64,000 nucleotides of DNA, taken from positions 5,333,441-5,397,440 of the forward strand of contig NZ_CP120233.1 in assembly GCF_030012985.1 (NCBI RefSeq), given 5' to 3'. The notes beneath the pieces are model-generated. The model was not told the origin of the DNA, made no database searches, and saw only the letters and a program-made list of their open reading frames with translations. Numbering within the stretch: position 1 is the first letter of the stretch; each line of letters starts with the position of its first letter. The translations under genes and the position numbers were made by a program. The DNA is from Microbulbifer sp. VAAF005. Its GTDB lineage: Bacteria; Pseudomonadota; Gammaproteobacteria; Pseudomonadales; Cellvibrionaceae. Below are positions 1,593 through 63,984 of the stretch, piece after piece.

Positions 1593-3059
1593 ATGCAAGA
1601 TTTTCTGGATCATTTCACTACCCTGATCGAGTGGGCAAACCTGCTCGCCTGGGGCGGAGTCGGCGGCATCTGGTGGCTTGGAATCTTGATTTTAGGATTG
1701 CTGCCGGCGGGGCTCTACTTTTCTATTCGCACTCGCTTTATACAATTTCGTCACTTTGGTCATATGGCCAAAGTCATGATTCGTGGCATCCATAAGGAAA
1801 ATGAAAACTCGGTAACTGCCTTTCAGGCATTTGCCACCAGCGCGGCTGCGAGAATCGGCACCGGAAATATTGCTGGTGTGGCTGTGGCCATAACCGCTGG
1901 TGGGCCCGGAGCGGTGTTTTGGATGTGGCTGGTGGCCTTGCTGGGGATGGCCACCAGTTTGGTGGAGAATACTCTCGCGCAAACTTACAAAGAGCGCGGC
2001 GATGTTCCCGGGGCATTTCGCGGCGGTCCTGCCTATTACATTGAAAAGGGGCTGGGACCGCAGTGGAAATGGCTGTCCCTGACTTTTTCAGTTTTTCTTA
2101 TGATTTGTTACGGATTTACCTTTAATGCTGTGCAGTCAAATACGATGGCTGCTGCGCTGTATGGAGCTTGGGGTGTAAGCCCTTTATGGGTGGGTTTTTT
2201 TATTGCGCTCTTTGCCGGGATTATTGTTTTTGGCGGTATTCGTTCAATTGCGCGCTTTGCCGGTATTGTTGTCCCTTTTATGGCAATTGGTTACTTGTTG
2301 GTAGCTTTCTATGTTTTGGTCGCCAATATTTCTGAGTTGCCCGGGGTGCTGTTGGAAATTCTGGCAAATGCTTTTGGGTTTCAGGAAGCTGGGGCGGGGG
2401 CCTTTGGTGCGGCGGTGGCCAATGGAATCAAGCGGGGCCTGTTTTCCAATGAAGCTGGACTTGGCTCCTCGCCCAATGTTGCTGCTGCTGCAGATGTAAA
2501 ACACCCAATGGTGCAGGGATACGTGCAAATGGCATCGGTATTTCTCGATACCATTATTATCTGTACTTCTACGGCAGCAATTATCTTGGTGGCAGATGTC
2601 TTTATGGTCGGTAATTTGGAAGGGGTTGGTTTAGTTCAAGACGCACTGGCGAGCGAGGTGGGTACCTGGGGAAGTAGTTTTATTGCTACTGCACTGATGT
2701 TTTTTGCCTTTACATCAATTATCGGTAACTACTATTACGGGGAAACCAATATTTATTACCTCTACCACACCCGAACATCCATCTTATGCTATCGGCTGTT
2801 GTTTTTAATGTTCGTGCTTTTCGGGGCTTGGGTGGCAGATACGGGAAGTGCGGAAAATTTTGCCTTGCTTTGGCGTATGGCCGATGTCTCGATGGGTTTT
2901 ATGGCATCGGCAAACCTTATAGCTATCTTACTTTTGTCTGGTGTGGCTTTTAAGGTAATGGCAGATTACGAGAGTCAGTTATCTTCCGGGGTGCGTGAGC
3001 CGGTGTTCAATGAGAGTAAATTTAAAATAAAAGGCATTGAGCACGATGTTTGGGGGTGA
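1593..3059 (+). CDS. AGCS-family sodium:alanine/glycine symporter
   Basis: A 488-residue inner-membrane protein with about ten hydrophobic segments. It carries the AGCS signature GPGAVFWMWLVALLGM (residues 104-119), preceded by GTGNIAGVAVAI, the sodium/substrate-binding loop typical of AlsT/DagA carriers. FSNEAGLGSSP, another family-invariant block, is also present. The length matches the family (450-540). It imports small neutral amino acids (alanine, glycine) with sodium. The gene is monocistronic and convergent with sirB2-like. The ATG at 1593 places a short N-terminal amphipathic stretch before the first membrane segment. Confidence 0.9.
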   Translation: MQDFLDHFTTLIEWANLLAWGGVGGIWWLGILILGLLPAGLYFSIRTRFIQFRHFGHMAKVMIRGIHKENENSVTAFQAFATSAAARIGTGNIAGVAVAITAGGPGAVFWMWLVALLGMATSLVENTLAQTYKERGDVPGAFRGGPAYYIEKGLGPQWKWLSLTFSVFLMICYGFTFNAVQSNTMAAALYGAWGVSPLWVGFFIALFAGIIVFGGIRSIARFAGIVVPFMAIGYLLVAFYVLVANISELPGVLLEILANAFGFQEAGAGAFGAAVANGIKRGLFSNEAGLGSSPNVAAAADVKHPMVQGYVQMASVFLDTIIICTSTAAIILVADVFMVGNLEGVGLVQDALASEVGTWGSSFIATALMFFAFTSIIGNYYYGETNIYYLYHTRTSILCYRLLFLMFVLFGAWVADTGSAENFALLWRMADVSMGFMASANLIAILLLSGVAFKVMADYESQLSSGVREPVFNESKFKIKGIEHDVWG

Positions 3060-3094
3060 TACCAATTTGAGTTTGATACCAAGTGCTCAATGCC
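3033..3094. repeat. 12-bp inverted repeat between convergent genes
   Basis: GGCATTGAGCAC (3033-3044, inside the AGCS gene end) is exactly complementary to GTGCTCAATGCC (3083-3094), with a 38-base spacer. It lies between convergent genes, so it may fold in both transcripts and limit read-through. There is no U-run, so it is not a textbook terminator. Confidence 0.5.
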
Positions 3095-3100
3095 ATCCAG

Positions 3101-3475
3101 TTACAAGCTGGGCTTGTGCATCGCCAGATAGAAAATAGCGACTACTTGCAGGAAGGCAAGTACACAGGCAGTGATTCTAATTGGCTTGGAGAAGTTGGGG
3201 CGTAAAGCAAAGACGCCAGCAATAATGTAGCCGAATACCAGGGCTACTTTCGCGGCTAGCCAGGGCGATGTGCCTGGGTTCCAACTGCCGAGAACCACCA
3301 GTCCGGCAGCCGCTGCTAAAAGCAAAGTGTCGTTGAGGTGTGGTACCCAGCGCAGGGGGCCATTTCGCCAGCCTGTGTTGTGGCTGAACTCCAACCCCAC
3401 TCTGATGGTAAACAGCAGGATACTGAGCACTGCGGCGGTCATGTGGACGTGTTTTATAAGGGCATAATCAATCAT
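3101..3475 (-). CDS. SirB2-family membrane protein
   Basis: A 124-residue protein with four hydrophobic segments, starting MIDYALIKHVHMTAAVLS. The motifs KHVHMTAAVLS, the RVGLEFS region and RWVPHLNDTLLL match the SirB2 family. The frame is open for 28 more codons upstream, but that extension is hydrophilic and unlike the family, so I chose the ATG at 3475. SirB2 proteins are uncharacterised inner-membrane proteins, named from a Salmonella regulator locus. Function unknown. Confidence 0.75.
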   Translation of the reverse strand: MIDYALIKHVHMTAAVLSILLFTIRVGLEFSHNTGWRNGPLRWVPHLNDTLLLAAAAGLVVLGSWNPGTSPWLAAKVALVFGYIIAGVFALRPNFSKPIRITACVLAFLQVVAIFYLAMHKPSL

Positions 3476-3728: not shown

Positions 3729-4601
3729 CTAGACTAGATTTCTGATCTGACCATATTTCATCCGTTGTGCGACACCGTGTTCAGCCCGAATCATATTTTC
3801 GTTGATGGCTAGGAGGTCAGTGGGTACGTTACCGAGATCGTCACTGAGCCCCACAGTTGCAATCTCTTCACGCAGCTCCATAGACCCACCTACCCAAATC
3901 CAGCCACTGGTTCTGGTTGATATTAAGTTGTTACGGTTTGGGATAGTTATATTGTTATAAATAATATTTAGTCCCCCATTGGCGATACGCGCCATGGTCA
4001 AAGGTGCTCCCTGCTGACGGAGTACTCTTCCCATGGGGGCTTGGCGCTCGTCGGCGAGGAAAGTGGAGTTGGCACTCCCTGAGAGGTAGCGGCCGCGATT
4101 ACATCGATCAGCGTGGATCAGCTCATGGGCGAGAGTAATGTAACTGGGGCAATTCCCCATCGTGACTGTGCCGTTGTTGGTCAGATTGGCAGTTTGAAGG
4201 ACCGAATTGTTCCACATAACGACCCCGCTAGACCCGCTGCTCATCACTTTGGCCATAAAGCCCCTGTCTGAGCTGACTAGGGGAATGTAGCTCTTAAAGC
4301 CGCTCCAAACCTGATCCTTTAGCCATTGGTCTGGGCGAAATCCTAGGGCGTGATGTTCGGTAATCCTTGTGTCATGGCGGCTTGATATTAGTCGGCGCAG
4401 TAGGGTGGTGCTATTTGCTCTTAATCCGACTGCTGTCAAAATGCCAACGCCCTCGGTAATTCGAAGTACATGACGCCCCCCAGCTCGATATCTTTCCTGT
4501 GTATAGGTCAGAGCTGTACCTACATTACCTACCAGCGTGTTCAGAGCAGTTCTTACCTGTGTGATAAAAACGATGTTATTAGAGTCAATGCAGAGTCCCA
4601 T
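3729..4601 (-). CDS. M91 (NleD-like) zinc metallopeptidase
   Basis: A 290-residue protein with a zincin motif HELIH at residues 159-163 in the context ITLAHELIHADRCNRG. Downstream, a SMELREEIATVGL segment can supply the third (glutamate) zinc ligand. This combination matches the M91 family, whose best-known member, NleD, is a type III effector that cleaves JNK/p38 kinases. No signal peptide or membrane segment is visible, as expected for an effector-type or cytosolic protein. No secretion genes are adjacent. It stands alone between non-coding stretches, suggesting an acquired gene. Fold assignment is fairly safe; target and export route are unknown. Confidence 0.65.
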   Translation of the reverse strand: MGLCIDSNNIVFITQVRTALNTLVGNVGTALTYTQERYRAGGRHVLRITEGVGILTAVGLRANSTTLLRRLISSRHDTRITEHHALGFRPDQWLKDQVWSGFKSYIPLVSSDRGFMAKVMSSGSSGVVMWNNSVLQTANLTNNGTVTMGNCPSYITLAHELIHADRCNRGRYLSGSANSTFLADERQAPMGRVLRQQGAPLTMARIANGGLNIIYNNITIPNRNNLISTRTSGWIWVGGSMELREEIATVGLSDDLGNVPTDLLAINENMIRAEHGVAQRMKYGQIRNLV

Positions 4602-5101
4602 TACTATTCTCCTATCCCGCTCGCATTACGAATTATCTTGACTGAGAAAAATTGTGAATTATTAAAGTTTTTAAGACGAATTTTCATACGCAAGAGGTAT
4701 AACCCAATGGTCCTGATCAAAATAATTTTGATAGTGATATTCTGGGCTTGCCTATAATGTTCGAACTAAAAAGTTCTTCTTGGTCAGGTTGTGTGTTTAG
4801 TGAGCGGAGCGGGAGAATCCCCAGGGAAATTAATATTTTTTTGTAATTTTTTTGAAGTACATCTTGTAACTATCTGAATGATTATCTTAAGGATGCCTCT
4901 GCGACTCTACTCTTAATTGGTACGTTTTGCTATATGTTTTATTTTCCATGATGATTATTTTAATAAATTTAAATAATTGATTGTTGGGCTGTTTGGGGTG
5001 TGCGCTATTTGGCAGCTTGTGAGCTTGTCTGTTTATTGGTGCTGCTTGGGTCTCAGGGGATATAGCTGTGACATATTGAGGAAGGAATTTGGGGGGAAGA
5101 T
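4602..5101. other. AT-rich intergenic region
   Basis: About 500 bases, strongly AT-rich and without a convincing reading frame on either strand. The last bases carry a ribosome binding site (GGGGGGAAG, about 5090) for the small ORF at 5102. Confidence 0.5.
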
Positions 5102-5257
5102 ATGCGGTTAGCCGTTAAATTATCGCTGGTGTTAGTTGTTGCAGTTTTGATATTGGTATATGAAACTGTTCCCTATAAAAAATATAAATGGGTAGCGGTT
5201 GAGTATCTTGTTGATTTTACAAAAAAGGGGAGAAGTGAACTTAACTTTCGTTCGTAA
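5102..5257 (+). CDS. small single-pass membrane protein
   Basis: A 51-codon frame starting MRLAVKLSLVLVVAVLILVY: two basic residues, then an uninterrupted hydrophobic helix, then a short basic tail ending ELNFRS. A strong purine-rich ribosome binding site lies about 5 bases upstream. It may be a membrane anchor or an uncleaved signal. It is the first of three closely spaced rightward frames (next start 6 bases after its stop). Family unknown. Confidence 0.5.
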   Translation: MRLAVKLSLVLVVAVLILVYETVPYKKYKWVAVEYLVDFTKKGRSELNFRS

Positions 5258-5263
5258 CTAAGT

Positions 5264-5482
5264 GTGCCCTACGAACTGGAATTACAGATAGAAAGGGCAC
5301 TTGATTCCAGTGAGCTAAATTGTCGGTTGGGTATTGCATACCTTGATAAAGAAAAGTGTAACGATCATCCTGAAAAATTGGCTATCGATTGGATAGTTTA
5401 TGAAGAGGGGGCCGAGGTTGCAGCGGTGATAAGACTTACGGGTTTTGGGGGGCAACAATGGGAAAGGATTATACTATTGTAG
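5264..5482 (+). CDS. hypothetical protein, acidic, 72 residues
   Basis: GTG start 6 bases after the preceding stop. The product is acidic and soluble (for example ELELQIERALDSSELN) with two cysteines and no recognised domain. Its 3' end overlaps the DP-repeat gene by 25 bases, which suggests translational coupling within one transcript. Function unknown; the start could lie elsewhere because GTG here has no clear ribosome binding site. Confidence 0.4.
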   Translation: MPYELELQIERALDSSELNCRLGIAYLDKEKCNDHPEKLAIDWIVYEEGAEVAAVIRLTGFGGQQWERIILL

Positions 5483-5703
5483 GTTCTGTGATAGACCCAG
5501 ACCCAGACCCAGACCCAGACCCAGACCCAGACCCAGACCCTGTACTTGCTGTTGCGGATTCGGTGCTTAAGGTGGTAATTGATCGGGTCGAATACAAAAG
5601 TGCCGTTGTTTACTCCAGCCTGCTTAATTTAACTTCTTATCTGCTTATTGTTCTTGCTGTTGCGAGTTGCTTTATTGGGCTTATCTTCAAGTGGCTGACT
5701 TGA
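5458..5703 (+). CDS. small protein with (Asp-Pro)8 linker and C-terminal membrane helix
   Basis: An 81-residue product in three parts: a 12-residue head, eight consecutive Asp-Pro pairs (residues 13-28), and a tail ending in a hydrophobic helix (about 58-78: LTSYLLIVLAVASCFIGLIF). The repeat would form a stiff, acid-labile spacer holding the tail away from the head. The ATG overlaps the preceding frame. It forms a trio with 5102 and 5264; no homologue is recognised. The repeat number could vary by slippage without changing the frame. Confidence 0.5.
   Translation: MGKDYTIVGSVIDPDPDPDPDPDPDPDPVLAVADSVLKVVIDRVEYKSAVVYSSLLNLTSYLLIVLAVASCFIGLIFKWLT
5494..5541 (+). repeat. hexanucleotide tandem repeat GACCCA x8
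   Basis: Eight in-frame units of GACCCA (the last is GACCCT) inside the small gene at 5458, encoding (Asp-Pro)8. Because the unit is six bases, gain or loss of copies keeps the reading frame. Confidence 0.95.
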
Positions 5704-5883
5704 AATTGCTAGCTTGAACCACACATAAGTAGATCCAAATGGCGATTTGTAAATGGCTTTGATTTACCAGGCGGAATCTAAATGGTTCCACTGCTAATAG
5801 ACGTCAAACTCTAGTGCTCATGGTACATTTTGTACAGAGTGAAGGTCGTTGTTCATAATCAATCTGAAAAAGGATACGGCGAT

Positions 5884-6879
5884 ATGTTAAAGGCAGAATA
5901 TCAAGAGCGCGGACCAGTGCCGCAGGATGTTATTGAGGCGGTGTCCTTTGATACCCCTGAACTTCAAGAGGGGCAGGTGTTGCTGGAGATGCTGGCAGCT
6001 CCAATTAACCCTTCAGATGTTCTGACCCTGACGGGCGATTATGGGATGTTGCCTCCTCTTCCTGCGGTTGGAGGCAATGAAGGTGTTGCCAAGGTCGTCA
6101 AACATGGACCTAATGTTACCGCGCCAGCCGTTGGTCAGGTCGTTCTGCTACCGGTAGGAAGCGGCACCTGGGCCACACATATGGTGGTCAATGCCCAGGG
6201 GCTGATTCCGCTCCCGAATAATGTGGACCCTCTACAGCTTTCCATGATAACGATTAATCCGCCAACGGCTTACTTGCTGTTGAGCGAATTTGTAGATCTC
6301 AAGGAGGGGGATTGGGTTATTCAGAATGCCGCAAACTCCGGTGTGGGGTCTTATCTGACAACCCTGGCCAAGTTACGGGGCCTGAAAGTGATCAATGTTG
6401 TCCGTCGTGAGTCTTTGATTGAGCCGATGAAGGCCGCAGGCGCTGATGTGGTTCTCGTGGATGGTGAGCACCTGGGTAAGCGAGTGGCTGAGGCTACTGG
6501 TGGTGCTGAGATCAAGCTAGGCATTGATGCTGTTGGTGGAATGGCAACTGCTCGCATGGGCGAGGCTCTGTCAAATGGCGCAACCTTAGTGAATTATGGC
6601 GCACTTAGTGGGGAACCCTGCGTTATCACACCGGGGATGATCATCTTTAAAGATATCACCGTGCGCGGGTTCTGGCTGGCCAAATGGTTTGGCTCGGCAT
6701 CCCCAGAGCGGCAACAGGAAGTTTTTGGCACTATCACAAAGCTAGTAGCGGAAGGTAAGTTATCTGCACCAGTTCATGGCACATACCCTCTGTCTGAAAT
6801 TAAAGAAGCCGTACGAATAGCTGCGGCAGGCGGGCGTGACGGCAAAGTGCTGGTTGTTAGTGAAAGCCTTGCGAGTTGA
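5884..6879 (+). CDS. zinc-independent MDR-family enoyl/quinone reductase (MECR-like)
   Basis: About 331 residues from the ATG at 5884, which has an AAGGA-type site; the frame is open upstream to a TTG but that part is not conserved. The block NPSDVLTLTGDYG followed by LPAVGGNEGVAKV is the hallmark of the 2-enoyl thioester reductase branch of medium-chain dehydrogenases. NAANSGVG (Rossmann loop) binds NADPH. No structural zinc cysteines are present. It likely reduces an activated double bond using NADPH. A strong terminator follows, so the gene is probably transcribed alone. Confidence 0.8.
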   Translation: MLKAEYQERGPVPQDVIEAVSFDTPELQEGQVLLEMLAAPINPSDVLTLTGDYGMLPPLPAVGGNEGVAKVVKHGPNVTAPAVGQVVLLPVGSGTWATHMVVNAQGLIPLPNNVDPLQLSMITINPPTAYLLLSEFVDLKEGDWVIQNAANSGVGSYLTTLAKLRGLKVINVVRRESLIEPMKAAGADVVLVDGEHLGKRVAEATGGAEIKLGIDAVGGMATARMGEALSNGATLVNYGALSGEPCVITPGMIIFKDITVRGFWLAKWFGSASPERQQEVFGTITKLVAEGKLSAPVHGTYPLSEIKEAVRIAAAGGRDGKVLVVSESLAS

Positions 6880-6906
6880 ATTCTAAGTATTAAATAGTAT
6901 CCCACC

Positions 6907-6936
6907 AAAAGTGCCACCTGATGAGGTGGCACTTTT
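6907..6936 (+). terminator. intrinsic terminator after the reductase gene
   Basis: Perfect 13-bp stem AAAAGTGCCACCT / AGGTGGCACTTTT with a GATG loop; the T-run is the end of the stem itself. It lies 27 bases after the stop of the reductase. Confidence 0.85.
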
Positions 6937-7152
6937 GAAGACAGTTCCGTCATTTTTTCGGAGCTTGATTCCTCAAATGCTACCCTTGATGTCAGCTCTG
7001 ACTTTTCATCTAAATTTATCTGCTGCCCATTGCTTTCTGAAAAGCGTTAGTTCGTGGAAATCAACAACGATGAGTTTGTTGTTTATATAAAATTTTCAAC
7101 TTATGTGGACTTTAGTTTCCCTACCTAACTTCATGGAGATTGTTGCCTGCTA

Positions 7153-48593: not shown

Positions 48594-49946
48594 ATGCCCA
48601 GAATAAGACAGCCTCAATCCTTTGAGGAGCTATTCACTAAGTTTTCTGCCACAGATCTACTCCCCATGTTTAATAAGTATGGGGCAACTGATGCCGATGG
48701 TAATTACCTGCATTGGGACAAATTTAAATGGAGGGTAAATAAAGGTGATTCTGAGGAGCTGGCTTGGTTAACGACGAAGCTCGCAAGAAAGGGAATTTCT
48801 AAGGTGTTGCCAAACCTCGAAGCAGTTAATGGCAAAAATTTTAGTTATTGTATTCCAGATTCTCTCTTTGCCAAGTTGCATCATATAGACATGGAGACAG
48901 GAGCGGGTCGGTCTCTAGAAGATGATGTTTTTTTCAAGGGTCTTGAAAGAGATAAGTATTTAGTTAAAAGCTTGATGATGGAGGAGGCAATTACTTCTTC
49001 TCAGTTAGAGGGAGCCTCAACGACCCGTAAAGTCGCGAAAGAAATGCTTAAAAGCAATAGAAAGCCGGCGGACAAATCTGAACAGATGATTTTCAACAAT
49101 TATTTGCTTATGAAAAGAGCCGTTGAAAAAAAGGATGAAGAGTTAAGTGTTGACTTAATTTTAGAGCTGCATGAAATTGCAACTTTTAATGCGATAGAGA
49201 ATCAGGCTGTTCCTGGGGAAATAAGAAAGGATAACGATATAGAAATTAAGAATCTCTATGGTGAGGTGGCATTTAGACCGCCTTGCTATAAAACTATTAG
49301 GGATAGAATGGATGCCTTATGTGCTTTTGCAAATTTGGATACTGAATCTGGCAATAGTGATAAATTTATTCACCCTGTAGTAAAGGCAGCAATTTTGCAT
49401 TTTATGATTGGGTTTATTCACCCATTTGGCGATGGAAATGGAAGAACTGCTCGCGCATTATTTTATTGGTATATGTTGAGGGCTGGTTATTGGCTTTTTG
49501 AGTACGTATCTATAAGTAAGCTTATTCAAGAGAAGAGGAGTCAGTATGATACCGCTTTTATATATACTGAAACTGATGATTTTGATCTCACATATTTTAT
49601 TTATAATCAAGTCGACGTAATTGATAATGCTGTGATTGCTTTGCGAAACCATATAGAGAGCAAAAAGCAAGATTTTTATCATTTTATGGAATGGATAGAT
49701 AGAAGCGAGTTGGCAAAAGGGTTGAAGCGTGGTGAACTAGAAATAGTTAAGGATGCCTTACAGAATCCAGGTAAGAGATTTACCGCTCAGAAAGTCGCAA
49801 TAGATATTGGTGTTAATGAAAATACAGCGAGATCATATTTGAATACGCTAGTTGAAAAGAATCTTTTGGAGTCTACAAAAAAGAAAAATATAAAAACAAT
49901 ATTTTATATTGCCCCAGATGACGTAAGGGAAGTTTTGCATTTGTAG
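48594..49946 (+). CDS. Fic-domain AMPylator with inhibitory helix and C-terminal wHTH
   Basis: A 450-residue protein. The inhibitory motif SSQLEG (about residues 135-141, S/T-x-x-x-E-G type) lies before the Fic core and would block ATP until released (class II). The Fic motif HPFGDGNGRTARAL is at about 276-289, with catalytic His and Arg intact. The tail (about 370-450) carries a winged helix: GKRFTAQKVAIDIGVNENTA, RSYLNTLVEKNLLEST. It transfers AMP or another group to a target protein, self-limiting by the inhibitory helix. A palindromic promoter precedes it. No antitoxin gene flanks it. No clear ribosome binding site is seen. Confidence 0.88.
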   Translation: MPRIRQPQSFEELFTKFSATDLLPMFNKYGATDADGNYLHWDKFKWRVNKGDSEELAWLTTKLARKGISKVLPNLEAVNGKNFSYCIPDSLFAKLHHIDMETGAGRSLEDDVFFKGLERDKYLVKSLMMEEAITSSQLEGASTTRKVAKEMLKSNRKPADKSEQMIFNNYLLMKRAVEKKDEELSVDLILELHEIATFNAIENQAVPGEIRKDNDIEIKNLYGEVAFRPPCYKTIRDRMDALCAFANLDTESGNSDKFIHPVVKAAILHFMIGFIHPFGDGNGRTARALFYWYMLRAGYWLFEYVSISKLIQEKRSQYDTAFIYTETDDFDLTYFIYNQVDVIDNAVIALRNHIESKKQDFYHFMEWIDRSELAKGLKRGELEIVKDALQNPGKRFTAQKVAIDIGVNENTARSYLNTLVEKNLLESTKKKNIKTIFYIAPDDVREVLHL

Positions 49947-53749: not shown

Positions 53750-54787
53750 CTAGGCCCGTTCATCACACTGTGCTCTTTCAAGAGTATTGAGTGCACTCTT
53801 CTCTACCGCATCCTCTAAATGCTCCGGCGACAAATGCGCATAGCGCATAGTCATCTCGATAGTGGAGTGGTCCAGAATCTTGTTTAGCTTGAGTAGATCG
53901 CCGCCATTGATCATGTAATGGCTTGCGAAGGTGTGGCGGAGGATGTGGGTTAGCTGGCCTTTGGGGAGTTTTAGCTTTGCTCTGGCCAGGGCTTCCTGGA
54001 AGGCGCGAAAGTTGGTGCCTACAAAGAGCCGGCCAGAAATGGGGCGCCCGCTCAGTATTTCTGATTCCAAATCGCGGCTGATAGGGATGCTGCGGTTCTT
54101 GCCGTTCTTGGTATCCACAAACTCAATCTTGCCATGGTGTACCCTTTCGGCTTCTAGGGTTTCAGCTTCAGACCAGCGGGCACCAGTAGCCAAACAGATA
54201 CGGGTGATAGTTCTGACATTTGGGTTGCGGGCCTGGAGCAAGGCAGTATCCAGGGCCTTGAGCTGTTCGACGCTTAAAAAAGTGAGTGGTGGTTCGGCCA
54301 CCCGAAGTTTGGGAACCCCTTTTAGTGGGTTGGGGTGTGTCCACTTTTTAATCGATATCAGGCGGTTGAACACCGCATTCAGATAGGTGTGCTCATGGTT
54401 AATGGTTCTGGAGCATGGCTGTCTCCCTTGCTCGTTGGGAGATTCCAGTCGCCGCTTGCGGTACAAAATCCAGTCTTCAGCGGTGAAATTGATAGCTTTT
54501 GGATCACCCAGCCACCTTGCTGTATTTTCCAGGTAATTTAGGCGCCCGGTGTGGTCCTTAAGTGTGTGGCCATGCAGTTCATACCATTCGTGAACCAACT
54601 GTGAAATGGTACGATTGTCTTTTTTTGGCGGAGACCACTCACCGCGATCTGCTGCGGCTTTTTGAGCGGTAAGCCACCTTTGGGCTTCACCTTTGGTATT
54701 GAAGGTTCGCTGTACCCTCTTACCACCGCGTCCTTCAGGTTGGCAATCCGCTTGCCATCGGCCATTAGCCTTCTTTTGTATCGCCAT
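53750..54787 (-). CDS. int: tyrosine recombinase, prophage integrase
   Basis: About 345 residues from the ATG at 54787, which overlaps the repressor gene stop by 23 bases. The core-binding domain (about 65-155) precedes the catalytic domain with LATGARWSEAETLE (Arg), LTHILRHTFASHYM (His-x-x-Arg) and LDHSTIEMTMRYAHLSPEH (His and nucleophilic Tyr). It catalyses integration and excision at the tRNA-Ser att site. Cotranscription with the repressor is likely. Confidence 0.92.
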   Translation of the reverse strand: MAIQKKANGRWQADCQPEGRGGKRVQRTFNTKGEAQRWLTAQKAAADRGEWSPPKKDNRTISQLVHEWYELHGHTLKDHTGRLNYLENTARWLGDPKAINFTAEDWILYRKRRLESPNEQGRQPCSRTINHEHTYLNAVFNRLISIKKWTHPNPLKGVPKLRVAEPPLTFLSVEQLKALDTALLQARNPNVRTITRICLATGARWSEAETLEAERVHHGKIEFVDTKNGKNRSIPISRDLESEILSGRPISGRLFVGTNFRAFQEALARAKLKLPKGQLTHILRHTFASHYMINGGDLLKLNKILDHSTIEMTMRYAHLSPEHLEDAVEKSALNTLERAQCDERA

Positions 54788-55127
54788 CCCTGAACGAATC
54801 CTCAGAAAAATATCCTTCTGGAACCAATCCCGCATCAATGCGGGCTGCGATAAATTTACACAATTTATTTTCGCTATTGCGTAGCCCATTCAGGTTCACA
54901 GGGCCTTCGTAGACAAACCATGGCAATAATTCTGGAAAGGCTAGGCCCATTGCCTCATAGCACTCTTCCGTGACTCGGTTTTTCTTGTATTCCATATTTT
55001 TTAAGTGAATCAGGTCGACCTTTAATAGTTCTGCAAACTCTTTCTGGGTTAACCCGGTCAATTCCCTGATCGCTCGTAATCGATCACCGGTCCTAAGTTT
55101 TGAAATCTTTTTCACTTGCTGACGCAT
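54765..55127 (-). CDS. Xre-family lysogeny repressor
   Basis: A 120-residue protein with an N-terminal helix-turn-helix: RLRAIRELTGLTQKEFAELLK, then the recognition region VDLIHLKNMEYKKNRV. The C-terminal part is helical (AARIDAGLVPEGYFSEDSF). It sits at the left of a divergent promoter with half-site repeats, opposite the AlpA/Cox-like gene. This is the arrangement of a P2-type C repressor or its equivalent, coupled to int. Confidence 0.8.
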   Translation of the reverse strand: MRQQVKKISKLRTGDRLRAIRELTGLTQKEFAELLKVDLIHLKNMEYKKNRVTEECYEAMGLAFPELLPWFVYEGPVNLNGLRNSENKLCKFIAARIDAGLVPEGYFSEDSFRDGDTKEG

Positions 55128-55351
55128 GCCTCTCTATTCTCCTTTGTTGGACAAATAGTGCACCAAAAGGAGTTCTATCTACAAGAAAAGGTGTGATACA
55201 AGCCCTTTCAACAAAGAAAAACCCGCCAAAAGTGTAATAAAAGAACCTTAATGGGTAACAAAAGAATAAAAAAGGGTTGACATGACACTTCTCTATAGGT
55301 GTAAATATTACCTCATTGGTTCTCATATTACCCCAAAGGAGAGTAGAGGGA
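55128..55351. promoter_or_regulatory. lysogeny switch region between repressor and excisionase-like gene
   Basis: It contains -35 TTGACA (55277-55282) for rightward transcription. Related half-sites lie at 55189-55198 (AGGTGTGATA), 55230-55239 (AAGTGTAATA) and 55297-55307 (AGGTGTAAATA). AAGTGTCA on the opposite strand (55282-55289) pairs with the last as an inverted repeat across the promoter. These are likely repressor or Cox operators. Confidence 0.55.
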
Positions 55352-55564
55352 ATGACTGAGCACGCAGTACCTTCAATCAAAACCCCGGTTTGCACCCAAG
55401 AGCAGTATGCAGTTGATGCCGGTCACACACTAAAAACGGTGCGCGCACAAGTAGATAGAGGCTATTTGCCAACTATCAAAATTGGACGCTATCGAATGAT
55501 CAATCTGATGCAGCTATCGCGCATGTGCCTTGAAGCTGAACCAGCCCAACCAAAGAAGAAGTAG
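55352..55564 (+). CDS. AlpA/Cox-like excisionase-regulator
   Basis: A 70-residue basic protein from the ATG at 55352, preceded by GAGAGTAGAGGG. It has TQEQYAVDAGHTLKTVRAQV and YLPTIKIGRYRMINLMQL, a MerR/excisionase-type winged helix as in Cox or AlpA. Located at the start of the rightward early operon, so it probably represses lysogenic transcription and assists excision. Confidence 0.65.
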   Translation: MTEHAVPSIKTPVCTQEQYAVDAGHTLKTVRAQVDRGYLPTIKIGRYRMINLMQLSRMCLEAEPAQPKKK

Positions 55565-55573
55565 GTTTGGCTT

Positions 55574-58249
55574 ATGGACTACAGCCAAATAAATAGCGAA
55601 GTGCTGCAAGCGCTGAAAAACGACCACAGTCTAAAGCTGAAGCAATCTGGGGTTGGTGATAAAGAGGTGCTGCGCGGCATTTGCCCAAGCTGTGAAAAGA
55701 AAACAGTTTGGATCAAAGTTGATAAACCTATCGCTTTGCGTTGTGACCGTGAGGATAAATGCGGATATGAAGAAAGGGTAAGGGATCGCTACCCGGACCT
55801 TTTCGAAAACTTCTCCAAGCGCTTTCCATCAAGCGACGAAGACCCCAAAGCTACGGCGCGAGCCTACTTATCTATTCAGCGCGGGTTTCCCGCTGCTGAT
55901 ATTGAAGACTGGTTTGAGCAGGGGTTTTACAAATTGCCGGATGGCTCCTGGGCGGAGACAGTACGCTTCCTTCTATTTGGAGGTGAGAAGGATTACTGGG
56001 AACGTATTGTTGATAAACAACATGTAAAAAAGGCGGGTAAAAAAGCCCGCTTTAAAACCGGTACTAGCTATGCCGGAAAGCACTGGGCACCACCTGGGCA
56101 AAAAATCAAACCCATGGAAAAAGTCTTCATTGTTGAAGGTATTTTCCACTGTATTGCGATGTACCTAAAAGGCTACAAAGCGGTTTGCGCGTTCTCCTGT
56201 TCCAATTTACCGAGAGAACTCATTAAGGAAAATAAAGGCCAGGGCATTATCTGGCACTTGGCATACGATGACGAACCCGGTGCGCGTAAGCATGTTGCTA
56301 AATACTACAAAGATCTCAAGGACCAGAAAGAAACTGTAGAAGTCGCGCAGACCGGCAGCTGTAAAGATTGGGATGATCTTTATAGAGATGGTTTGCTTAA
56401 TGATGAAACCATTGAGAACTGTGTTTGGCGTGGTCGCGTTTTTGTGGCTGAAACGCCAAAGCGTAAAGCTTATGCGCAGTATGGGTGGAAGCCATTTGGC
56501 AAAACCATCATTGAGCATAACGATAGATTACATTCTGTAAAATTCTCCCTGGAAGACTTTAACAAAGCTAGTGAGGGAGAACCCTACAAGTGGGGCTTCT
56601 CCTGGGATGCTTTTAACCAGGCTGCCAAAGTAGAGCAAATTTCAAACTGCGTTCCTAAATTCCAGTACACGGAAATCGACCGCCTAACGAATGAGCGCCG
56701 CTACTTTTTTGCTATCAAGAAATCGGGCACCAAGCGCAGCTACCTTGGTGCATTTACTCCCAACGCACTATCCGACCCCCGCGCCTTTGGCCTTGCTCTG
56801 CTTTCGCATACAGACGGCGGCAGCTTTGAGGGCGGGGCAGGTGATTTAAAAATTCTCAAGTCTCGCTGGCTAGACGGCGAAGTTAACCGGGTAACTACCT
56901 TGCCGCACATGGGATTTGATGAAAATACCCGCACTTATATCTTTCCTGGTTTCGGCTATCAAAATGGCAAATTAATTACAGCCAATGAACACGGCTTTTT
57001 ACAGCAAGGTGATACCGCCATTAAAACCACCCTGGAGGGAATGCCGGTTCATCAGAGTGATAAATTTGACGGAAGCTGGTGGCCGGATTTTGTAAAGGTA
57101 TTTCACTTAAACGGTATCGCCGCTTTGGCTTACTTCACCGCCAGCCTGTTTGCCCGCCAGATCAAGGAAAAACACCAGGCGTTTCACTTTCTAGAAATTA
57201 CCGGTGATCCCGATGCCGGTAAATCCACTCTAATCCGCTTTATCTGGAAATTACTTGGCCGAGATAATTACGAAGGTATAGACCTGCTAAGTACCTCAAC
57301 GTCCAGCTACGGCCGAAACTTGGGCAAGGTTAGTAACCTTCCGGTTGTGGTCATTGAAAGTGACAGAGAAACCAGCGGCGATACAGGGGGCCGTGCTTCA
57401 AAATCTTTTAATTGGGATATTTTCAAAAAGGTTTATGACTTAGATGGTGTTATTGACTCAAAGGGGGTGAAGACCAACGACAATAAAACTCATGATCGGA
57501 TCTTTCGCGGCAGTTTGGTGATTAGCCAGAACGCCACGGTCCAGGCATCAGCGGCCACGCTTTCACGTATTGTTCATCTTCACTGCACCACTGCCCACAA
57601 GCGCGCAGAAAATCGCCCCCTGGCAGATCGACTCAAACGCGAGCCGGTAGAGAACATGGCGGGGTATCTTCACCAAGTGCTTACCCATGAGACAGAGTGG
57701 CTATCTCACTTCTTTAATGCCTTTGAAAGCCACCGGGCAACCTTAACCACTGATGACGGTATTAGCCAAGGCCGGATTATCGATTGTCATGCCCAGCTAA
57801 TGGCAGCGGTAGAAGCCCTGCAAGTCATCTTGCCGGATTTTGACACATCCCTAATTAACAAGGTGCAAGAACACTTAGTGGAGCGCGCACAGGACAGGCA
57901 GCGCCGTTTAAACAAGGACCATCCGATCATTGAGCAGTTCTGGGATACCTACCACTTTATTAACGATCAGGTGGTTTATGTCGAGGACGAGCAAGGGAAG
58001 CGGCACGTAAACACTGATCGCCTGAACCACAGCATCGATCCCGCCTTAATCGCAATCAACCTCAACGAGTACATGGAACTCTGCCGCAAACGCGGCCAGG
58101 AGCTGGTGCCTGTCGCGGAACTAAAGCAGCTGTTCTCTACCAGCCAGCGCTATCCGCTGGATGGCTACAAGCGGGTCCGGTCGAAGCGAGAAGAGAAAAC
58201 TAGGCCCTGGTGCTGGGTATTCAAAAGAACCGGCGGAAGTGGTCGCTGA
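55574..58249 (+). CDS. P4-alpha-like primase-helicase
   Basis: An 891-residue protein in three parts. A zinc-ribbon with Cys37, Cys40, Cys57 and Cys63 (ICPSC ... LRCDREDKCGY) precedes a TOPRIM core with VFIVEGIFHCIAMYLKG at about 190 and AYDDEPG at about 240. A helicase domain with Walker A GDPDAGKST (about 544-552) and the VVVIESDRE strand follows. It combines primase and helicase, as phage P4 alpha does, and P4 alpha also binds its origin repeats. It probably initiates prophage replication from the iteron field immediately downstream. No second replication gene is seen. Confidence 0.85.
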   Translation: MDYSQINSEVLQALKNDHSLKLKQSGVGDKEVLRGICPSCEKKTVWIKVDKPIALRCDREDKCGYEERVRDRYPDLFENFSKRFPSSDEDPKATARAYLSIQRGFPAADIEDWFEQGFYKLPDGSWAETVRFLLFGGEKDYWERIVDKQHVKKAGKKARFKTGTSYAGKHWAPPGQKIKPMEKVFIVEGIFHCIAMYLKGYKAVCAFSCSNLPRELIKENKGQGIIWHLAYDDEPGARKHVAKYYKDLKDQKETVEVAQTGSCKDWDDLYRDGLLNDETIENCVWRGRVFVAETPKRKAYAQYGWKPFGKTIIEHNDRLHSVKFSLEDFNKASEGEPYKWGFSWDAFNQAAKVEQISNCVPKFQYTEIDRLTNERRYFFAIKKSGTKRSYLGAFTPNALSDPRAFGLALLSHTDGGSFEGGAGDLKILKSRWLDGEVNRVTTLPHMGFDENTRTYIFPGFGYQNGKLITANEHGFLQQGDTAIKTTLEGMPVHQSDKFDGSWWPDFVKVFHLNGIAALAYFTASLFARQIKEKHQAFHFLEITGDPDAGKSTLIRFIWKLLGRDNYEGIDLLSTSTSSYGRNLGKVSNLPVVVIESDRETSGDTGGRASKSFNWDIFKKVYDLDGVIDSKGVKTNDNKTHDRIFRGSLVISQNATVQASAATLSRIVHLHCTTAHKRAENRPLADRLKREPVENMAGYLHQVLTHETEWLSHFFNAFESHRATLTTDDGISQGRIIDCHAQLMAAVEALQVILPDFDTSLINKVQEHLVERAQDRQRRLNKDHPIIEQFWDTYHFINDQVVYVEDEQGKRHVNTDRLNHSIDPALIAINLNEYMELCRKRGQELVPVAELKQLFSTSQRYPLDGYKRVRSKREEKTRPWCWVFKRTGGSGR

Positions 58250-58320: not shown

Positions 58321-58634
58321 GGGACAGAGCGGGACAGGGGAATTTAAGAGAAAAAAGTTTATATAAATCAATAAGTTAATGGAGTAATGACAGTGGGACA
58401 ATTTCGGGACATTGATGGGACAACACGGGACATGGCGTTTGGGACAAGTTACCAATCTGTCCCAAATTTTGGTAACAGCCCAAATGCCGGCAAAGCCAGT
58501 AGCCACGGGGCCCACAGCGAATCGGGGTGTGGCGTGTCCCATCTTGTCCCAAAAAAATGGGACAGGGTAGATGCTCTACAGACCGCATAAAACCTCACTT
58601 CCAGAATGAAATAAACGCATTGTCCCGTTGTCCC
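58321..58634. repeat. GGGACA/TGTCCC iteron field, probable replication origin
   Basis: Thirteen copies of GGGACA or its complement in 314 bases. Plus-strand copies start at 58321, 58331, 58395, 58406, 58417, 58427, 58441 and 58559. Complement copies start at 58458, 58535, 58545, 58621 and 58629. The five from 58395 to 58441 are spaced 11, 11, 10 and 14 bases, so they face one side of the helix. GGGACA and TGTCCC at 58441 and 58458 form an inverted repeat. An AT-rich stretch lies at 58343-58380. The position right after the primase-helicase suggests origin repeats bound by that protein. Confidence 0.75.
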
Positions 58635-58681: not shown

Positions 58682-58968
58682 ATGAGCAACCGACACCAAG
58701 ACGCAGTGCCAGGCATTAGCGCCAGCTCGACAGCTGCAACGAAGGGGGCTGGGTTCCCCCTCTGATTGCCGGAGCCACCGACTCCAGCAGCGAGGATCAC
58801 CGCCGCAACTGCTTGGCCTGGTACCTGTTTCGCACAAAGACCCGTTCAGAAATCTTGGCGTGGCTGGATCAACAAAATTCACGATTTAAGGCTGATATGC
58901 GCGCTCGCCTCAACACCCTGCGGGGAGAAGTGCGGCAGATGCGCGAGCAAGTACAGGAGGAGGGATAA
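58682..58968 (+). CDS. DUF7696-like small phage protein, frameshifted
   Basis: The ATG at 58682 gives MSNRHQDAVPGISASSTAAT then stops. A neighbouring frame continues PPLIAGATDSSSEDHRRNCL, then AWYLFRTKTRSEILAWL and RLNTLRGEVRQMREQV to a TAA at 58966. One missing G (run 58744-58748 or 58751-58753) joins them into about 95 residues. The C-terminal helical segment resembles small phage proteins of the DUF7696 type. It starts the early small-gene series. Confidence 0.5.
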
Positions 58969-62937: not shown

Positions 62938-63984
62938 TTACACAAAGTTTGGGCTATCAAACCCAATCCGCTTGCTCTTCGGTAGCCACTCATTCAACTG
63001 CAAAAAAACGTCTTGCATAGGCACAACCTCATTTTCAAAATAGACGCGGGTGATCTTCTCTATATCCCCAAACCCCCCGCTATTTTCCGGCATGACTCCA
63101 GCCAGCGCGGGCTGAATTCGCCACATACTTAGAATATCGTTCCGCGTTAGGTTCTTGATTCGCTCGAACTCATCTTTGGTGGCAATGTCACCTACAGGAA
63201 TAATTTGAACGCTCTTCTCTTTGCCGTTGGGAATATTCAGGAACATTGAACGGAAGTTGCCCACCCCTTTACTACTTTTTATTTGCTCCTTGATAGCCGC
63301 CTCATCCTCTGGGCTAAGGTGTGCGTCTGCGGTATAGAAGATGTAGCCCATGTGGGCGCCGTTGTTGTAATAGCGACGCCTGAAGAGCGTGCTGTCTTCA
63401 TTTAGCAAAACTGATTGAACGCCGCCTAGATATTGTGGCCTACCGTAGATTTGCTGTGCGGGGTCATACTCCTTCAGCTGTACAACCTCCCCAGGCTCAT
63501 AGACAACCGGGTCAGCGCCATTTGGCTGCAACATGCAAAAGCGGTCAGACTCTTTCATTCTTCGCATATTCACGCCCGGCAAGTGCTCTAAGCGTAGAAG
63601 ATGGTCAAAGGTGTTGTACTTCTTCTTGAAATAGCAGTGCCCTAACACCTCATAGTCAAACCCAGCTTTAGCGAGACATTCCGTGCGAACCCCGCCACCT
63701 GGTTTGAACCATTTGCGCAACTGGTTGCGCTTGAAGTAGGGGATAGTCCCGTGGTGGGCATTGGCTCCTAGAAGATTGATCAACCCGGTTTGGCTTACTG
63801 GGGGCACATAGTAGTCACCACCAGGTTGTAGGAATGTGCCGAGATAATCCCCAAGATTGCCATTCAAGACCGGCTCAGGATCACCAAAGCTAAACATTGT
63901 GGGGCCGCTATCTGCGGGGGTTGCCTTCATGTTCTCAGAACTGGCTTTTGCCTTTGCTTTAAAGCGGTTTCTCTTGCGTCCCAT
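62938..63984 (-). CDS. P2-type phage portal protein
   Basis: A 348-residue protein that begins MGRKRNRFKAKAKASSENMK. It contains FSFGDPEPVLNGNLGDYLG, PPVSQTGLINLLGANAHHGT, YLGGVQSVLLNEDSTLFRRR and a C-terminal VVPMQDVFLQLNEWLPKSKR. These are the blocks of P2 gpQ portal proteins, and the length fits (about 344). It forms the dodecameric DNA entry ring. It faces leftward; terminase and capsid genes are expected beyond 64000. Confidence 0.92.
   Translation of the reverse strand: MGRKRNRFKAKAKASSENMKATPADSGPTMFSFGDPEPVLNGNLGDYLGTFLQPGGDYYVPPVSQTGLINLLGANAHHGTIPYFKRNQLRKWFKPGGGVRTECLAKAGFDYEVLGHCYFKKKYNTFDHLLRLEHLPGVNMRRMKESDRFCMLQPNGADPVVYEPGEVVQLKEYDPAQQIYGRPQYLGGVQSVLLNEDSTLFRRRYYNNGAHMGYIFYTADAHLSPEDEAAIKEQIKSSKGVGNFRSMFLNIPNGKEKSVQIIPVGDIATKDEFERIKNLTRNDILSMWRIQPALAGVMPENSGGFGDIEKITRVYFENEVVPMQDVFLQLNEWLPKSKRIGFDSPNFV

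Follow-up and report, generated by a model that had tools for sequence, protein, structure and literature searches.

What is a dense cluster of short repeats doing directly behind a primase gene? The question is raised by a prophage of Microbulbifer sp. VAAF005 (contig NZ_CP120233.1), in a 64,000-nucleotide stretch of DNA that was analysed as a whole and is referred to here as the window. Thirteen copies of GGGACA or its complement TGTCCC lie between positions 58321 and 58634 (both strands; exact search, shuffles and spacing analysis), past the gene of an 891-amino-acid primase-helicase (55574..58249, + strand). This iteron field is real and carries a specificity signal that is unusually clear and lends itself to testing, and we conclude that the field is probably the replication origin of a P2-type prophage, possibly together with a copy-control site, with the adjoining protein as its initiator.

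An exact search finds 26 copies of GGGACA/TGTCCC in the window, as compared to 26.5 in shuffles, and 13 of the 26 fall within the field, against a pro rata expectation there of about 0.13. With these 13 copies GGGACA is the top hexamer in the 600 bp past the primase stop; the maximum hexamer count in 200 dinucleotide shuffles of this region was 6. The excess over chance proposed by a first-pass annotation is thus confirmed, as is its placement of the field directly downstream of the gene: the stop codon is at 58247-58249 and the first GGGACA at 58321, leaving a gap of 71 bp. Plus-strand copies are located at 58321, 58331, 58395, 58406, 58417, 58427, 58441 and 58559 and minus-strand copies at 58458, 58535, 58545, 58621 and 58629, so that the orientations read 7 plus, 3 minus, 1 plus and 2 minus along the plus strand. 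The first iteron pair is followed by a 58-bp spacer (58337..58394, + strand) that is 74% A+T, a possible unwinding element, and then by a phased array. The plus copies at 58395, 58406, 58417 and 58427 are spaced by 11, 11 and 10 bp and a fifth (58441) lies 14 bp further on; the earlier description of five phased copies was roughly right. Helix phasing reaches beyond this one field, since same-strand iteron spacings from 24 dissimilar loci (471 spacings) exhibit a 10.8-bp period with a mean cosine of 0.61, as compared to 0.14 or less in all 300 jittered controls. With this period, a bound protein would occupy one face of the helix.

On both strands, small reading frames run across the field. 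This could point to an artefact of coding sequence (simple repeats, codon bias or a small open reading frame), yet the shuffle tests and the retention of homologous sites in relatives, where nearly every copy switches alike, make this explanation, like chance, scarcely credible. On the sequence evidence it already counts as refuted.

Many relatives keep a repeat field past the primase gene and change its sequence. The top hexamer in the 600 bp past the primase exceeded all 200 shuffles in 22 of 36 loci, a count that includes close relatives of each other, e.g. L034 and L035. Below this criterion were 14 loci, consisting of 11 phage records at about 30-33% identity together with L018, L025 and L032; the near misses were L025 and L032, reached by 3 and 2 of the 200 shuffles, respectively. 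Iteron loci carry between 4 and 16 exact repeat copies, typically about ten, over about 300 bp. GGGACA itself is found in the window and in one relative (L007), while the repeats of other loci are GGAACA, GTGACA, GGGCACA, GGGAACA, TGTAAACA, CTGGAATG, TGTAAAA, GAGCAAC, CGGCAACA, GGTAACC, CCTAACC, ATTAACG, TGGAAGG and others. Many of these variants resemble a loose pattern, NNGNAACA, of which the window form is TGGGACA. The Pseudomonas phages phi3, BIBS67 and PaBSM-2607-JFK (Peduoviridae by record or relation) encode a homologous primase with 41-42% identity, and right after it lie 16 GGAACA copies in L034 and L035, mostly as CCGGAACA, the repeat of Pseudomonas phages, and 11 TGGAAGG copies in L036, all differing from the GGGACA of the window. 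No origin is annotated at these fields in the record stretches of the three phages that we examined. The first-pass expectation that the repeats would be conserved beside homologous primases is therefore borne out for the field in many relatives and not for its sequence, and the iteron is new as a hexamer while being one of many variants in the family.

The field is not found throughout the family. Among the loci at about 30-33% identity (L037-L047 and L102-L134, including Citexvirus Dobby, Smp131 and others), those that were scanned showed no iteron field past the primase. In a later set of 111 non-redundant C-terminal domains, 45 have a downstream cluster and 66 have none; where coverage sufficed, the median protein identity to the window was 40% with a cluster (n = 41) and 33% without (n = 60). 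Seven of the 60 proteins without a cluster are at least 38% identical to the window protein, indicating that the field can be missing even from closer relatives.

Some fields of relatives have unusual arrangements. At L018/L030 (G058:C10:46335-49389) a separate open reading frame of 164 amino acids lies past a full-length primase. This frame repeats the C-terminal domain alone (41% identity) and has eight GGACACA copies past it; its product could regulate the initiator as a stand-alone protein or compete with it. The first 330 bp past the primase of L025 and L089 hold few exact copies of CCGAAC (4) and many one-mismatch copies, some of which are CCTAAC, the repeat of close relatives, possibly an origin midway through an iteron switch. 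In L097 and L297, the repeats TGGAATG and TGAACTA alternate in one field over the first 440 bp past the primase.

Iterons were placed in an 8-base register set by their AA core (p5-p6), so that p6 is A by construction; the register was set before the link to residue 869 was noticed, at a time when the C-terminal sequences of a number of loci were already known. Among 49 loci, Arg or Lys occupies residue 869 in 40 of the 40 with C at p7 and in none of the 9 with another base. The residues accompanying other bases are His in 3/3 loci with G, Ser, Asp or Tyr in 5/5 with T, and Val in 1/1 with A. Over 43 non-redundant loci column 869 ranks first of 879 columns, scoring 0.87 with the next at 0.28. 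The residue of the window protein is Arg869 (codon 58178..58180, + strand), which lies in the wing of a C-terminal winged-helix-like domain (residues 784-884; 57923..58225, + strand) that we propose as the iteron-binding part.

For a blind test, the rule was written, new loci were gathered, motifs were assigned from DNA alone and the residues were read last. Four of the 45 test clusters (L043, L225, L227 and L248) were removed in advance because they were ambiguous or did not look like arrays, and L018 (C-type, Arg), which fits, was excluded from the blind count because its sequence was known earlier, yielding 40 loci. Arg or Lys was present at 869 in 26 of 27 C-type loci and 0 of 13 non-C-type loci, the sole exception being L297, a C-type locus with Tyr869. 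Residue 869 was Asp, Asn, Asn, Asn and Trp in the T-type loci (n = 5); in the G-type loci (n = 8) it was His in five, which are close relatives of known ones, and Tyr, Tyr and Trp in the others, the Trp locus (L226) having an ambiguous register. The rule that links Arg/Lys to C held, and the Tyr rule failed. Within the test rows alone (38 full-length) column 869 again ranked first, of 865 columns. A second rule, Arg877 with G at p5, failed, being correct in 0/3 cases.

The association recurs across the tree of the family. A tree of 86 rows from the first and test sets, made with 125 C-terminal residues removed by a quick method with a simple model (several long branches were flagged), gives a distribution of 64/1/0/21 for residue 869 against p7, with 9 changes in each trait. 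Eight of 9 independent tree pairs change together, none change in the opposite sense and one shows no difference (sign test, p = 0.0078). The wings (868-878) of L141 and L142 differ solely by Asn/Lys869, with few differences nearby (858 and 863), and their iterons, AAGCGAAT and AAGCGAACC, differ at p7 (T/C) and at the looser p8. That the repeat and residue 869 change together suggests that the primase-helicase reads the repeats directly, and from the strength of this co-variation we predict that its C-terminal domain recognises the iterons, in agreement with the probable origin binding that the first-pass annotation had assigned to the protein beside primase and helicase. In a simple chemical reading, Arg or Lys at 869 would contact the G opposite p7.

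This co-variation bears on the reading that the repeats are not an origin but operators, through which a transcription regulator would control neighbouring genes or the primase would repress its own. The field does sit between two early-region genes, just upstream of the next reading frames, and phased repeats are possible in operators as well. However, some ten copies over about 300 bp around an A+T-rich spacer exceed what an operator needs, and the partner that co-varies is the C-terminal domain of the primase itself (co-variation having been tested on primase columns). We regard a purely operator role as quite unlikely; an origin role would leave room for autorepression or copy control at these sites as well.

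The spacer contains a match to a site for integration host factor (IHF). The sequence AATCAATAAGTTA (58366..58378, + strand) agrees exactly with WATCAANNNNTTR, which we take to be the IHF consensus. An exact IHF-like site is present at 20 of 49 iteron loci, partly close relatives, as compared to 1.2 expected, at 0 of 37 loci without iterons (0.6 expected), and at 0 of the 22 loci of the Pseudomonas phage clade in the scanned set. Since the site is missing in all 22 of these, IHF is not a general component of the fields.

Could the initiator bind here to a site for partition, copy control or incompatibility, while replication begins elsewhere? The satellite phage P4 offers a model, in that its crr occupies the same position and is annotated as required in cis apart from the origin, ori. 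Against such a split, the field itself holds the A+T-rich spacer typical of an unwinding element, and an exact search, covering the prophage as far as the window end, found no second GGGACA cluster in the 64-kb window. This arrangement is unlikely, and an origin within the field is the reading that we carry forward.

The initiator candidate matches phrog_1139 ('DNA primase', E 1.4e-219) over residues 5-885, its AlphaFold model has a mean predicted local distance difference test (pLDDT) score of 91, and the closest named relatives of its gene are in Microbulbifer. A DnaG/Toprim-type primase part (residues about 84-316; 55823..56521, + strand), with a DnaG fold match, is followed by an AAA+ helicase part (residues about 310-781; 56501..57916, + strand) whose best fold matches are Cch of the staphylococcal cassette chromosome mec (SCCmec) and SaPIbov1 Rep of a Staphylococcus aureus pathogenicity island (SaPI). 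The C-terminal domain has weak fold matches to winged-helix proteins. DUF927 (Pfam profile) is absent from the 3 families that the window protein matches at E 0.1 and from the 25 of 34 families listed for 40 members of the family.

The first-pass annotation had called the protein P4-alpha-like, and the capture of a genuine P4 alpha/ori-crr module by a phage of P2 type would explain why primase, helicase and DNA binding are joined in one protein with a repeat field after its gene. In the P4 record (NC_001609) crr is at 4291-4590 and alpha at 4636-6969 on the minus strand, and the type-1 repeat read from the record, GGTGAACA, fits the family pattern, although it differs, as was first noted, from GGGACA. 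The likeness of the proteins is confined to the Toprim part, which alone aligns to P4 alpha (hhalign probability 97, 202 columns). The D5_N and Pox_D5 domains, clear in P4 alpha with its D5-type helicase, are not among the families listed (25 of 34) for the 40 members, and DUF5906 is a weak match in 9 of the 40. P4 also has its ori and crr split, with a second repeat cluster 4.5 kb away. The P4-alpha-like label is not supported beyond the Toprim part, and capture of a P4 module is very unlikely.

A concerted switch of the repeats is seen within this genome. A second prophage encodes a primase 90-95% identical to that of the window and has a GGAACA iteron field. Of the 13 sites aligned to window iterons, 10 read exactly GGAACA there and 12 carry A in place of G at p5. 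Divergence between the two is 17/78 in iteron columns and 79/350 outside them; with divergence alike inside and outside the iterons, the unusual feature is the same change at nearly every copy. The second primase (L002/L003, G000:C1:3330388-3333059) is split over two overlapping frames (residues 1-618 and 605-891) and so looks broken; its iteron field is nonetheless kept. Compared in 150-bp blocks with L008 (GGAACA), the window is 86-99% identical up to gene nucleotide 1800 (at least 95% in 7 of 12 blocks), 71-94% identical over 1800-3300 (C-terminal third and field) and 95% identical in the next two blocks. The gene of L007 (GGGACA) is 87-95% identical to that of the window, except for one 98% block at 1800-1950. 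These block identities hint that the C-terminus and field have been exchanged as a cassette, although the pattern is not sharp.

The gene order around the field is as follows: a tyrosine integrase (53750..54889, - strand; phrog_1, E 1e-70; Pfam Int_N and Phage_integrase), a repressor-like helix-turn-helix protein (- strand), a Cox-like excisionase/repressor directly upstream of the primase (55316..55564, + strand; phrog_575 Cox-like, E 2.5e-6, and phrog_1864 of unknown function, E 3.1e-16), the primase-helicase, the iteron field, small genes, a phrog_603 regulator (- strand), presumably Ogr-like by position, and a P2-type portal protein (62938..63984, - strand; phrog_68, E 3e-121). The window ends at the last base of a single 5,397,440-bp contig, and the opposite contig end encodes terminase, scaffold, major head protein, head-tail adaptor, tail sheath, tape measure, baseplate and tail-fibre-like proteins. 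With the portal in the window and head and tail genes at the other end, the arrangement fits one P2-type prophage spanning both ends of a circular chromosome, the junction being our inference, and upholds the first-pass assignment to this type. No nickase of the P2 gene A type, a rolling-circle initiator, was named among the early-region proteins searched, which covered part of the reading frames. A small open reading frame just past the field (58682-58765) closes after 27 codons in the window; its counterparts in the second prophage (L003) and L007 are open across the 70 codons read. In Pseudomonas phage phi3, a reverse transcriptase is annotated beside the integrase (L035:386-2071). Upstream of the prophage, a 450-amino-acid open reading frame (48594-49946) contains HPFGDGNGR, and by eye we take it to resemble a Fic-family protein.

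In the mechanism that we propose, a DnaG-type primase fused to a self-loading AAA+ helicase like SaPI Rep and Cch would be brought to the origin by its C-terminal winged helix, which would bind each iteron (roughly NNGNAACA in the family). Residue 869 in the wing would read p7, with Arg or Lys for C (G on the opposite strand) and different residues for the other three bases. Many bound copies on one helix face, flanking the A+T-rich spacer, could then load helicase rings as the DNA is bent and melted, leading to a theta-type replication start; the IHF-like site would accompany the spacer in a good part of the non-Pseudomonas relatives. The initiator C-terminus and the iterons would change in step as lineages diverge, and the two may be transferred as a single cassette.

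Iteron-binding self-loading helicases (SaPI Rep, Cch2), P4 alpha with crr, and base-residue matching in begomoviruses are known precedents for parts of this scheme. The C-terminal domain of SaPI Rep is reported to recognise iterons directly downstream of its gene (PMC7581432). SaPI Rep with its ori and SCCmec Cch/Cch2 thus share with the window both the helicase fold and the place of the iterons, but the window protein has a DnaG/Toprim primase fused in front and shows no DUF927 match, its host element is a P2-type phage and not a satellite or SCC, and repeats and initiator diversify together. For begomoviruses with GGNGTCC iterons, one variable iteron base is reported to be matched to one variable Rep residue, along with replication incompatibility between strains (PMC2974675). 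There the protein is an unrelated rolling-circle Rep with N-terminal determinants (the iteron-related domain), whereas here the wing of a phage helicase-primase is implicated. One driver of such change is suggested by a phage nuclease (PMC8263062) that imitates an initiator and may impose selection for altered iterons. The part of the literature searched contained no published account of the iterons or wing code of this primase-helicase family.

How the sequence specificity of initiators evolves is hard to put to the test, since neither initiator nor origin can change without the other. This family offers many natural origin variants at a fixed place and one residue that predicts one base class, and it includes natural relatives whose wings are almost identical. 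The evolution of origin specificity thereby becomes directly testable, as does incompatibility between phages and between prophages. The field also makes candidate origins easy to find in P2-type phages, where the records examined closely annotate none at this place. More tentatively, and perhaps somewhat against the odds, P2-type phages may carry replication specificity groups in which each wing is matched to its iterons in a cassette open to exchange, with repeated switches that follow a simple code (869/p7, with further residues for other positions). Selection against cross-talk with co-resident prophages, or against origin-directed parasites or defences, would drive these cassettes apart. 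If so, the iteron of a phage would be partly predictable from its protein.
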